Source: a virus
Virus record (IMG/VR): IMGVR_UViG_3300024433_000031
Location: 1-31,326 of that record
Direction: 5' to 3' (one strand)
Length of the DNA: 31,326 bases
Below the pieces are notes generated by a model. That model made no database searches, was not told the origin of the DNA, and saw only the letters and a list, made by a program, of their open reading frames with translations. Numbering within the stretch: position 1 is the first letter of the stretch; every line of letters starts with the position of its first letter. Positions 21,421 through 24,083 of the stretch are shown piece by piece. The position numbers were made by a program, and so were the translations under genes.

Positions 21421-21502
21421 GGGGTAAAATTTAGTTACATAAAGGTATAAAAAGTAATTGGATAAATCCTTGTGAGTATGAAAAATTTTCACTATGAAAG
21501 CT

Positions 21503-21603
21503 TACTATCATGTTTGTGATAGTAGTAACCATACTAAACGTGGTAGTGGGACTATCATAAACGTGATAGTAGTGGCCAACCGTTTGTGATAGTACAAAAA
21601 CAC
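21503..21603. repeat. Four-copy 23-bp repeat array with palindromic TGATAGT cores (operator or iteron-like)
   Basis: Copies begin at 21511 (TGTTTGTGATAGT), 21535 (TAAACGTGGTAGT), 21558 (TAAACGTGATAGT) and 21581 (CGTTTGTGATAGT), at steps of 24, 23 and 23 bp. Two perfect inverted repeats overlap them: TACTATCA/TGATAGTA at 21503-21524 and ACTATCA/TGATAGT at 21551-21570, each with a 6-bp spacer. It lies between the CUB gene and the plus-strand block, so a regulator-binding array or replication origin is plausible. On the plus strand, GTTG-N20-TATATTTT just downstream (about 21607-21638) could be a weak promoter. Confidence 0.75.
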
Positions 21604-21676
21604 TTAAGTTGCTGGTCCATAGTACATTAGCTATATTTTAGTGTGTTTTTTTACTTATATATAAATCTATAAGATT

Positions 21677-21847: not shown

Positions 21848-22002
21848 ATTACAAATATCTGATATTATTTTTACTTTGGAAAATATACCCCCCCCTCTAT
21901 ATTATTTTGCCTTTAGAAAATAAAGACGTGGAGAGTACCAAGGTCATCGACCCCTTCTAAGTTGTGCGTGGGTCAATGTAGTCCCCGTAAAAATTAAAAA
22001 CT

Positions 22003-22314
22003 ATGAAAAAGAATGAAACTAATTACTCCGTAAAGTCGATGAAACAGTATGAACCAACAGTGTATGTGGATGGCAAGCCAACAGACGAAACTTGTATCCG
22101 TGTATACGTTTGTATTGAGCGTAAAACAGTTTGGGAGGGTCTTAAAGACCAGTACTCTTATGGTGGCTTCTCGCTTAATGCAGGGATTACGCTTGAGCAA
22201 GCCAAAGAGCTACTAACTGAGGGTCAAGACCTAACAGGCAGAGTCATCTTCGTTGGTGAACCTGGTGTCCAAGAGGACGGTAGACCTGGCTTCTACACTG
22301 CACAACTTATCTAG
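22003..22314 (+). CDS. Hypothetical 103-aa protein with distinct codon use
   Basis: This is the first plus-strand gene. It has no membrane segment or signal peptide. It is beta-rich, with a YGGFSLNAG turn and an EQAKELL helix. I do not recognise the family. Its codons are richer in GC third positions (CTC, GGC, ATC, CGT) than its neighbours, which may mean higher expression or foreign origin. The leader (about 21905-22002) is unusual: it contains GACCC...GGGTC that can pair (21950-21975) and a GTGCGT element also found in the RNA modules downstream. A good terminator follows at 22,321, so it may be a single-gene transcript. Confidence 0.7.
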   Translation: MKKNETNYSVKSMKQYEPTVYVDGKPTDETCIRVYVCIERKTVWEGLKDQYSYGGFSLNAGITLEQAKELLTEGQDLTGRVIFVGEPGVQEDGRPGFYTAQLI

Positions 22315-22320
22315 TTGTGT

Positions 22321-22348
22321 GAGCCCCGAAATGGGGCTCTATCTTTTT
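22321..22348 (+). terminator. Rho-independent terminator after the 103-aa gene
   Basis: GAGCCCC (22321-22327) pairs with GGGGCTC (22333-22339) around a GAAAT loop, and TATCTTTTT follows. It starts 7 bp after the stop codon at 22314. Confidence 0.85.
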
Positions 22349-22397
22349 CCTAAATACTGAATACTAATTAGATTATTAACCAATAAACTGTGAAGTT

Positions 22398-22475
22398 ATG
22401 AAGAAATATGTTCTTTTTAATGGAGTTGTAATGCCTATTGAGGATTACAATGATATGATTGCCGACAGAGGGTAG
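22398..22475 (+). CDS. Possible 25-aa small ORF
   Basis: ATG follows GAAGTT and gives MKKYVLFNGVVMPIEDYND and six more residues ending in ADRG, then TAG. The composition is like a real protein start, but it stops as the structured RNA region begins. It could be a leader peptide, a broken gene or a chance frame. Confidence 0.35.
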   Translation: MKKYVLFNGVVMPIEDYNDMIADRG

Positions 22476-22775
22476 TCATTGTCTTTCCAATCGTCTAACA
22501 AACGGAGATTCGTCATCTTGGCAACAGAATTGACGGCTATTCATTATTAATTATAGCTTAAACTTATTATTAACTCTCATCCAATTGCTGGCAATGAAAT
22601 TGTCTTGAAATGAAACTACCCTTAGACAAGGTAGCATAGTTCAGTCAAGGATTGCAACCTTGTGAGAGTATGAAATTCGGATACAGTATAAAAACCGTAG
22701 GTTTGAATCCTGAAAACTGTGAGTGCGTAAGCATCTCTAGTAGAGTCACGGGATGTGGCTCTACTTTTTATTAAG
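22476..22775 (+). ncRNA. Structured RNA unit 1 with tRNA-like arms and terminator
   Basis: No convincing reading frame fits. Helices include CTACC/GGTAG (about 22617-22635), CAAGG-ATTGCAA-CCTTG (22646-22662, the shape of an anticodon arm with UGC) and a T-loop-like GGTTTGAATCC (22700-22710). I could not close an acceptor stem, so I do not call a tRNA. It ends in a terminator at 22,741. An imperfect GCCGACA/TGACGGC stem may join about 22,461-22,535. Confidence 0.5.
22741..22769 (+). terminator. Terminator of RNA unit 1
   Basis: TAGAGTCAC (22741-22749) pairs with GTGGCTCTA (22755-22763; one G-U pair), with a GGGAT loop, and CTTTTTATTA follows. The same stem halves and tail recur at 23,010-23,069. 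Confidence 0.8.
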
Positions 22776-22875
22776 AATTAGAAAAGCTGTACGTGCGTTG
22801 GCACATAGTAGTAAAAACTTAAGTTTATACTGCAACAGCGTATACCTAAGCAAGTAGATAAACTGCTTTTTATTA
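22776..22875 (+). ncRNA. Short hairpin unit with its own terminator
   Basis: Contains GTGC-GTTG-GCAC (22794-22805 region), a bulged stem AGTA-G-TAAA/TTTA-TACT around the 12-bp palindrome AAACTTAAGTTT, and a final AAGCA/TGCTT hairpin (22848-22868) followed by TTTTTATTAA. It has no open frame of note. A small RNA is possible, but the hairpins are short. Confidence 0.4.
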
Positions 22876-23069
22876 ACTTAGTGGCGTAATCGGATAGATA
22901 GTGGTAAGCAAACTATTGATGATTCTTGATAAAGGTAACTACAGATTATGTGCATAATGTCTGTAGCAGCAGGTTCGAATCCTTGCCGCCCAAAAAACTA
23001 TGAGTGCGGTAGAGTCACGAGATAGAGTAAGTATCCTAACAAAGGTTCTATCAATGTGGCTCTACTTTT
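22876..23069 (+). ncRNA. Structured RNA unit 2 with T-arm-like motif and duplicated terminator
   Basis: The main hairpin is CTACAG-ATTAT-GTGC-ATAAT-GT-CTGTAG (22939-22966). A T-loop-like GGTTCGAATCC follows (22972-22982), flanked by a bulged GCAGG/CCTTGC stem, and a bulged, broken TGGCG/CGCCCA outer stem could be a decayed acceptor. The 3' end repeats unit 1 (TGAGTGCG, then the TAGAGTCAC/GTGGCTCTA stem). I read it as a paralogue of unit 1 with an extra insertion. Confidence 0.5.
23010..23069 (+). terminator. Terminator of RNA unit 2, expanded by an inner hairpin
   Basis: TAGAGTCAC (23010-23018) and GTGGCTCTA (23056-23064) form the same stem as at 22,741, but the loop has grown to 37 nt and holds its own stem, GATAGA (23021-23026) with TCTATC (23047-23052). 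ACTTTTTATTA follows. Confidence 0.7.
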
Positions 23070-23077
23070 TATTACTA

Positions 23078-23153
23078 TGGGAAGTTAACTGCACATAGAT
23101 GCATATATAGATGCAGGGGAACAAAAGTAATTATTTGTTCTTCTGTCTTCCCA
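23078..23153 (+). ncRNA. Three-way junction RNA element
   Basis: An outer stem TGGGAAG (23078-23084)/CTTCCCA (23147-23153) encloses two arms: CTGCA/TGCAG (23089-23093 with 23112-23116) and GAACAAA/TTTGTTC (23119-23125 with 23134-23140). All three helices are perfect. No open frame crosses it and it is not followed by a T-run, so it is not a terminator. I checked for hammerhead core bases and did not find them. Confidence 0.6.
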
Positions 23154-23299
23154 ACGATATTTAATTACATAGTTTAATAGGTGTATACAGCATATACATG
23201 ACAAAATACCTTTAAAAGAAAAACACTATCGCATAATAACTAGATAGAGATGCATTGAGATATGCTGTAATATTTACTAATCCTTTAATACTTAAAATT

Positions 23300-23410
23300 A
23301 TGACATTTATATCACAAACAGCACCAGATGCCGAAGGGAATTACACTATGAAGTGGAAAGACCAAAACGGTAAAATAAAAATAACATCTCATAACTTATT
23401 TGAAATATAA
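23300..23410 (+). CDS. Small ORF, 36 aa
   Basis: ATG after an A/T-rich leader (CTTAAAATTATG) encodes MTFISQTAPDAEGNYTMKW and 17 further residues ending in SHNLFEI. The composition is ordinary for a small beta protein with charged turns (KDQNGKIKI), so it is probably translated. It is flanked by RNA structures on both sides. Between the three-way junction and this ORF (23154-23299) I see only weak hairpins such as GTATA-CAGCA-TATAC. Confidence 0.5.
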   Translation: MTFISQTAPDAEGNYTMKWKDQNGKIKITSHNLFEI

Positions 23411-24062
23411 TAAGTGCAGAAAATTGTTAAATTATACTAAGACCGTATCTCACCTCTCTTTGGTTAGGCTTGATCACCTGTAATCATTGACCCAAATGAC
23501 GTGAGTGAAGTCTTATTCATAACATATATTCACCGTTGGTTGGTTTCCTTATAAATCAATACTATATGTTATGACAATTTATCAGAAATGATAAACTAAA
23601 TATCCTGTAGGGTGAACTGCAGGATAACTTATTAAAGGTAGTCTGGCCCTTCTAATTACCAGACAGTCCAATGATACACTACAGATATCCGAGGTCCTTG
23701 ACTCTAACCTTGACAAAAAAGAGTAAATGTAATAAGAGAGTCTGATTAGTATGCCAAAATCTGAACATCGACTCTCTAAACTTATTGAAGTGAGGTTGGA
23801 CAGTTATACTGACTAGTGTGAAATACAACTAGGGAATGGAGTAATTACCATTTTGGTCCCTGACTGGATGCACAAAATCCTGCAGGTCTTTGCCTTGCAC
23901 CTCACTTCAACAAATTGCCATCACTATTTATAGTGTAAATATCAAGGGAGAATTTAGGCAACTCCCTTTTAATAAGGCAATGCAACATTCAGGCAATAAT
24001 CTGAGTGAATTGATAGGAATCTGCCAACAGATAGTGAGTTCGAATCTCACCCTTGCCTCTAA
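23411..24062 (+). ncRNA. Large ornate structured RNA (about 650 nt)
   Basis: A chain of strong helices fills the stretch: AAGAC + CTCAC / GTGAG + GTCTT (23439-23514); TCATAACATATA/TATATGTTATGA, 12 bp perfect (23517-23574); TTTATCA-GAAA-TGATAAA with a GNRA-type loop (23578-23595); TATCCTGTAG/CTGCAGGATA (23601-23626); GTCTGG/CCAGAC (23641-23664); AGAGAGTC/GACTCTCT (23735-23777); and TTGAAGTGAGGT/ACCTCACTTCAA, 12 bp perfect, enclosing a further multi-arm region (23785-23910). A tRNA-like segment ends it. The scale and the linkage to tRNA-like sequence recall GOLLD and ROOL class phage RNAs; whether it belongs to one of them is not known. Confidence 0.7.
23976..24058 (+). other. tRNA-like 3' segment of the large RNA
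   Basis: The T-arm is canonical: GTGAG-TTCGAAT-CTCAC (24034-24050), followed by CCTTGCC (24051-24057). GGCAATG (23976-23982) can pair with it at 6 of 7 positions. A D-arm-like ATTC/GAAT and a short ATCTG-CCAA-CAGAT hairpin lie between, but there is no seven-base anticodon loop, so it is not a normal tRNA. GGCAAT can instead pair with ATTGCC at 23914-23919, giving two exclusive folds. Confidence 0.55.
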
Positions 24063-24083
24063 AACTTATTAAAAATAAATGTT

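Follow-up and report, generated by a model that had tools for sequence, protein, structure and literature searches.

Related cassettes with T-loop and terminator-like elements in a probable small-RNA array of a crAss-like phage

Does a long stretch of phage DNA devoid of sizeable genes contain related RNA modules, or only terminators that resemble each other by chance, and what kind of RNA would such modules encode? The question is raised by a region at positions 22315-24083 of a viral DNA stretch of 31,326 nucleotides, hereafter the window. This region of 1769 nt (1.77 kb) has no open reading frame of 80 aa or more and lies between a leftward structural block with terminase, portal and head genes and a rightward one that includes a HAD/PNK-type phosphatase and a DNA polymerase. 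The terminase shares 33.6% identity, at 96% coverage, with its counterpart in Cellulophaga phage phi14:2 (Crassvirales), and the window is therefore taken to be part of the genome of a crAss-like phage that is uncultured. A locus search based on the HAD/PNK gene returned distant phages only, and these were left out of the comparisons. Two segments of the region, here called units 1 and 2, had been described in a sequence-only reading as tandemly duplicated small RNAs with identical terminator halves and T-loop-like motifs.

Relationship between the two units

The units and their neighbours comprise the following features:

22537..22569, plus strand: array leader TTAATTATAGCTTAAACTTATTA, its core present once each in the window and seven near relatives
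22567..22672, plus strand: module A, a variable insert flanked by the constant frame CTCTCATCCAA..GCNGG / CAAGGRTTGCAACCTTGTGAGAG
22675..22773, plus strand: unit 1 cassette, with homologs in contigs L002 (95%) and L007 (86%)
22683..22720, plus strand: unit 1 stem P1, ACAGT (22683-22687) with ACTGT (22716-22720), enclosing a T-loop-like hairpin
22721..22737, plus strand: unit 1 small hairpin GAGTGC-GUAA-GCAUCUC, invariant in three phages
22739..22773, plus strand: unit 1 terminator-like hairpin, U tract and ATTA linker (12-pair terminator call)
22774..22875, plus strand: module B, an unrelated conserved module with 83% identity in L012/L014
22876..23074, plus strand: unit 2 cassette, its tail matching the unit 1 HMM (E 3e-4)
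22882..22982, plus strand: unit 2 tRNA-like head, with D-arm-like TGGCGTAATCGGATAG (22882-22897), a hairpin and a T loop
23002..23074, plus strand: unit 2 GAGTGCG, terminator-like stem with a 37-nt hairpin-bearing loop, U tract and ATTA (fold z -3.97)
23969..24062, plus strand: further tRNA-like cassette with acceptor stem and T arm (GTGAG-TTCGAAT-CTCAC)

All sequence elements named in the earlier reading were found in the window. Both units contain TGAGTGCG, GTAGAGTCACG and a common 21-nt 3' end, with GAGTGCG at 22721-22727 in unit 1 and 23002-23008 in unit 2, TAGAGTCAC at 22741-22749 and 23010-23018, GTGGCTCTA at 22755-22763 and 23056-23064, and CTTTTTATTA at 22764-22773 and 23065-23074, respectively. 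The T-loop motif reads GGTTTGAATCC in unit 1 (22700-22710) and GGTTCGAATCC in unit 2 (22972-22982). The longest exact word common to both units has 21 nt (ATGTGGCTCTACTTTTTATTA), compared with longest repeats of 14-20 nt in 60 simulated windows, and exact words of 21, 11 and 8 nt follow each other in colinear order. The pattern GGTTYGA(A/G)TCC occurs twice in the window, once per unit, against an expectation of 0.0225 per window, and both window copies of the stricter GGTTYGAATCC fall in the two units. An HMM of the three unit 1 sequences, the window copy and two homologs, matches unit 2 at 22967-23073 with an E-value of 3e-4 in 2.2 Mb. The unit 1 covariance model matches unit 2 weakly (E 0.16), probably due to long insertions, so that the paralogy is a matter of sequence similarity. 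Judged in this way, units 1 and 2 are paralogous from the T loop to the terminator, the heads excluded, and chance can be excluded as the source of their resemblance. The hairpin parts of the units fold far better than shuffled sequences (z -3.8 and -4.0).

The proposal of paralogous RNA modules rather than chance terminators is borne out, since the homologs of unit 1 covary and the similarity between the units is significant. Several particulars needed revision. The 37-nt loop of the second terminator is present (23019-23055), but the insertion amounts to 32 nt, the loop of unit 1 itself being 5 nt, and the U tract of unit 2 runs to 23070 rather than ending at 23,069. A tandem duplication describes the part from T loop to terminator; however, nothing in unit 1 corresponds to the head of unit 2, about 90 nt, and the unrelated module B separates the two units. 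The two-unit framing is also too narrow: the region is an array, headed by a conserved leader, of probable RNA cassettes that are exchangeable and mostly unrelated to units 1 and 2.

Structures of the units and known RNA families

Unit 1 recurs in L002 and L007, which are phage contigs of other metagenomes, and the alignment with homologous phages envisaged earlier keeps its pairing. Pattern searches for further copies found unit 1 in these two contigs only and no second copy of unit 2, and the covariance model of unit 1 gave no convincing new members over 159 sources. In the three-sequence alignment all 69 cells of the 23 pairs are standard pairs, and three pairs carry compensatory changes on both sides across the three phages, compared with 28-46% paired cells and no compensatory pair in slid controls. 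On the strength of these compensatory pairs and the complete pairing, unit 1 is very probably an RNA. The shuffle control of the covariation was modest (20/500), as is to be expected of an alignment of three sequences. Compensatory changes in relatives, by which phage structured small RNAs are recognized, were found for unit 1 only.

The hairpin enclosed by P1 is AGG-TTTGAAT-CCT (22699-22711), with a T-loop-like loop. In L007, P1 is replaced by CTTGT/ACAAG, and one base pair, read by eye, is gained on both strands. The loop TTTGAAT departs from a strict T loop by a U at position 56, and CTTGAAT of L002 has a C at position 54. The small hairpin that follows does not vary among the three phages, so its structure is neither supported nor refuted. 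The terminator stem GTAGAGTCAC/GTGGCTCTAC covaries to GTAGTACCAC/GTGGTACTAC in L007, where two pairs change on both sides, and the sequence hallmark of intrinsic terminators, a G+C-containing stem followed by a U tract, is seen at 22739-22765 with its T run. By energy, the window copy of unit 1 favours pairing AAACC with GGTTT over the T-loop-like hairpin; this local hairpin was set aside because it is broken in L002.

The terminator-like stem of unit 2 is as in unit 1, with a 37-nt loop that exceeds the loop limit of the terminator scan and is predicted to contain a hairpin of its own. In the head, TGGCGTAATCGGATAG is a D segment of class-II-tRNA-like type, the hairpin CTACAGA/TCTGTAG at 22939-22966 is variable-arm-like and is followed by the T loop GGTTCGAATCC, whose TTCGAAT fits TTCRANY, the T-loop consensus that in tRNA is closed by G-C. 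A D-arm pattern followed by a T loop, as in unit 2, occurred in none of 400 simulated windows. The canonical acceptor is absent and the T stem is not intact; in place of the acceptor, GTGGCG can pair with a TGCCGC that follows the T loop. With z -0.47 the folding energy of the head does not stand out from that of shuffled sequence, and the 200 loci compared contain no homolog of unit 2 as a whole. The predicted fold of unit 2 is accordingly that of a single sequence, unit 1 being known from three, and that of its head is a suggestion only. The head looks tRNA-derived, and unit 2 resembles a rearranged form of the tRNA-shaped frames described below, a likeness rather than an established membership.

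Rfam searches returned no match in the window either at the gathering cut-off or at E<=10, and no family in seven relatives; ARAGORN found no tRNA and no tmRNA gene in the window. A tRNA has a 7-bp acceptor stem, a 5-bp T stem and an anticodon arm with a 7-nt loop, whereas units 1 and 2 have a T stem of 3 bp without a bulge and no anticodon arm. They are like tRNA (RF00005) and phage tRNA clusters in the T-loop sequence, the D-arm-like segment of unit 2 and their position in a cluster of phage small RNAs, but lack an intact acceptor stem and have a terminator hairpin attached. The combination of a tRNA-like domain with a tag reading frame, which defines tmRNA, was not found in the window.

Among other comparison systems, the 'stable RNAs' of phage T4, RNA C and RNA D, are small stable RNAs within the phage tRNA cluster. 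The units would be similar to them in kind, as small stable RNAs of a phage, but T4 has two such RNAs rather than an array of shuffled cassettes. The large RNAs GOLLD and ROOL have a link to phages as well. They likewise are structured and non-coding, but each is a single large RNA, while the array has no Rfam match. Two papers (PMC2864571, PMC12286853) present them as structured non-coding RNAs recovered from bacteria and metagenomes by comparative genomics. The two units are RNA families that are new in themselves but belong to a known general kind, that of phage small RNAs. Neither the array nor the array of a relative nor two copies of module A had a match in named phages, where a 60-nt query that joined the two halves of the frame yielded nothing beyond weak tRNA-like hits of a generic sort, and no open-access paper describing this array was found.

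Exchangeable modules and frames with variable inserts

BLAST comparison with relatives resolves the region into largely abutting blocks with sharp homology borders:

Homology blocks, first part: 22366-22569; 22567-22672 (module A); 22675-22773 (unit 1); 22774-22875 (module B)
Homology blocks, remainder: unit 2; 23074-23162; 23440-23748; 23864-23915; 23955-24071

These blocks are reordered and recombined in relatives. In L012, for instance, the 23955 module comes immediately after module B. Across the window and its seven near relatives, differing sequences stand behind the leader; unit 1 comes directly after it in L002, whereas module A intervenes in the window. The leader is possibly a phage promoter or a processing site. 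The 3' end of module B is also found in L002, L049, L056, L060 and L074. The array contains nine TTATTA linkers (1.5 expected) and six terminator-like sites (0.9 expected). The further tRNA-like cassette at 23969-24062 has two small hairpins and no anticodon arm, is 82% identical in L012/L014 and folds with z -2.2; ARAGORN is silent on it.

The frame of module A was detected in at least 119 viral stretches, and a search of 84,980 bacterial genomes gave no match. Its many unrelated inserts fall into about 47 clusters among the matches listed, some of them inflated by a second frame within the pattern. The ends of an insert pair with their own partner better (5.51) than with swapped ones (4.91), the maximum of 1000 swaps being 5.43. 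The loop RTTGCAA of module A, seen in the window and from L124 to L242, contains the palindrome TTGCAA, which could make kissing dimers.

A tRNA-shaped frame, AGTCAGG + TGGCGGAATTGGTAGACGC ... ACAGGTTCRAATCCTGT + CCTGACT, is present in many phage contigs, with 23-112 nt of mostly unrelated sequence at the position of the anticodon arm. Seventy-three distinct inserts were counted, and 64 of them have no anticodon-like arm right behind the D arm. A general search for class-II frames gave 140 distinct matches, some of which are normal tRNAs, versus none in shuffled DNA. Most tRNA-shaped frames lie in contigs without module A, both being carried by seven loci, and they thus speak for a wider phage phenomenon rather than constituting proof about the window. 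Frames with intact acceptor, class-II D arm and T arm were seen in L213, L133, L145, L154, L252, L338 and about 100 more; tRNA-shaped frames are mostly missed by ARAGORN, and some adjoin normal tRNAs. Another frame RNA, AAGGGTGAGCAGTTGTAAT ... insert ... ATTACAACTGAGTGCAGAGGG, was noted in L030, L044, L047, L049 and L058; 50 loci contain both its 3' signature and module A.

Two systems offer a comparison for such frames. In the relatives' frame RNAs the anticodon arm next to the acceptor and T-arm part is replaced, as in the tRNA-like domain of tmRNA; unlike tmRNA, no tag reading frame was found and no tmRNA was called in the window. Laboratory 'tRNA scaffold' RNAs carry a foreign RNA at the site of the anticodon arm and use the tRNA shape for stability. 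As a working analogy the frame RNAs are similar to them, although the scaffold is man-made, whereas the frame RNAs are natural and would serve as scaffolds only by presumption.

Proposed explanation and alternatives

We consider it probable that units 1 and 2 belong, as two cassettes, to an array of structured small RNAs encoded by the phage. This array would be read rightward, probably from the conserved leader at 22537-22569, and each of the two RNAs would end in its terminator-like hairpin and U tract. The 3' block with the upstream T-loop hairpin was probably duplicated and joined to different 5' parts, namely a short closing stem in unit 1 and a rearranged tRNA-like head in unit 2. Both RNAs are presumed to be made and stable. 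Their mode of action can be proposed more tentatively, from shape alone, and we would sooner doubt than assert it: the T-loop and closing-stem part might imitate the elbow of a tRNA and thereby gain for the RNA the binding, stabilisation or modification that tRNAs receive, and the remainder might act as an effector or decoy against host translation or host defence.

The resemblance between the units could have a simpler origin, in which two ordinary intrinsic terminators were copied by recombination and the T-loop motifs are incidental. The strongest identity does lie in the terminator stem and tail, and the region is mosaic and prone to recombination. However, the HMM match takes in GAGTGCG and continues upstream through the T loop, the stem P1 that encloses this loop in unit 1 covaries, and two T-loop motifs by chance are improbable, all of which makes the copying of terminators alone unlikely. 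Decaying tRNA genes, the remains of a former phage tRNA cluster that lost its anticodon arms and persists as functionless pieces between terminators, are distinctly unlikely as well. While unit 2 retains D-arm-like and T-loop pieces whose stems are gone, and related phages have normal tRNAs, unit 1 and the RNA at 23969 are conserved, unit 1 with compensatory changes. Moreover, perfect acceptor and T arms surround unrelated inserts in many phage contigs, and decay would not spare exactly those arms that recur in the class-II frames and not in shuffles.

A regulatory function is conceivable, with unit 1 as an attenuator or riboswitch-like leader in which competition among the GAGTGC hairpin, CATCTC and the loop of the terminator lets the upstream fold gate the transcription of the array or of downstream genes. 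CATCTC can pair with the upstream GAGTG or, alternatively, with the terminator loop GAGATG (GGGATG in the window, a G-U variant), and the partners are present in all three copies of unit 1. Yet no pairing was found that disrupts the terminator stem itself, neither unit has a gene directly behind it, CATCTC is lacking in unit 2, and unit 1 precedes different modules in different phages; we regard this gating as very unlikely. The array sits between divergent gene blocks and adjoins conserved repeats at 21500-21615, as might be expected of replication or recombination hairpins acting in DNA and not as RNA, but its tRNA-like T arm has a single orientation, its U tracts lie on one strand and its stems tolerate G-U pairs, which renders a DNA-level element hardly credible.

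The reading of units 1 and 2 as cassettes of a small-RNA array bears on phage genome annotation, which consists almost entirely of proteins and standard tRNAs. Conserved modules, of which at least some are very probably structured RNAs, fill nearly 2 kb of this crAss-like phage and go unreported by current tools. A broader and more doubtful possibility is that in arrays of exchangeable cassettes in environmental phages a constant frame presents a hypervariable structured insert as an RNA arsenal against host translation or defence, the candidate frames being the tRNA shape without anticodon arm, module A and, in units 1 and 2, the T-loop/terminator frame. This principle of frame and insert could be categorically new. 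If such RNAs are made, they would form a class of phage effectors or decoys that is both large and untapped, and would show the tRNA shape serving as a carrier in nature; if the arsenal reading is true, they would be a natural, rapidly evolving counterpart of the tRNA scaffold. The frame RNAs would also give a testable route to the role of the 'stable RNAs' beside phage tRNA genes.

Further observations concern the surroundings of the array. The repeats at 21500-21615, between the divergent gene blocks, are of the GTTTGTGATAGTAGT type, are kept in at least ten relatives and may be an origin or promoter region. A conserved and possibly structured leader (GAGAGTACCAAGGTCATCGACCC...GTCCCCG) at 21919-21990 stands ahead of the ORF at 22003, and L029 has the same. 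Immediately upstream of the array leader, positions 22398-22475 contain a micro-ORF, MKKYVLFNGVVMPIEDYNDMIADRG; L002, L005, L007, L012, L023 and L029 encode short peptides that start similarly (..NGV..) close to the leader or to module D. Module D (22489-22545) consists of AACAAACGGAG and a hairpin with the internal loop ATCTTGGCAACAGAAT, and its closing stem differs in L007 with pairing intact (CGTCA/TGACG versus GACTC/GAGTC). Within the array, the gap at 23300-23410 contains a 36-aa ORF, MTFISQTAPDAEGNYTMKWKDQNGKIKITSHNLFEI, which is conserved in L002.
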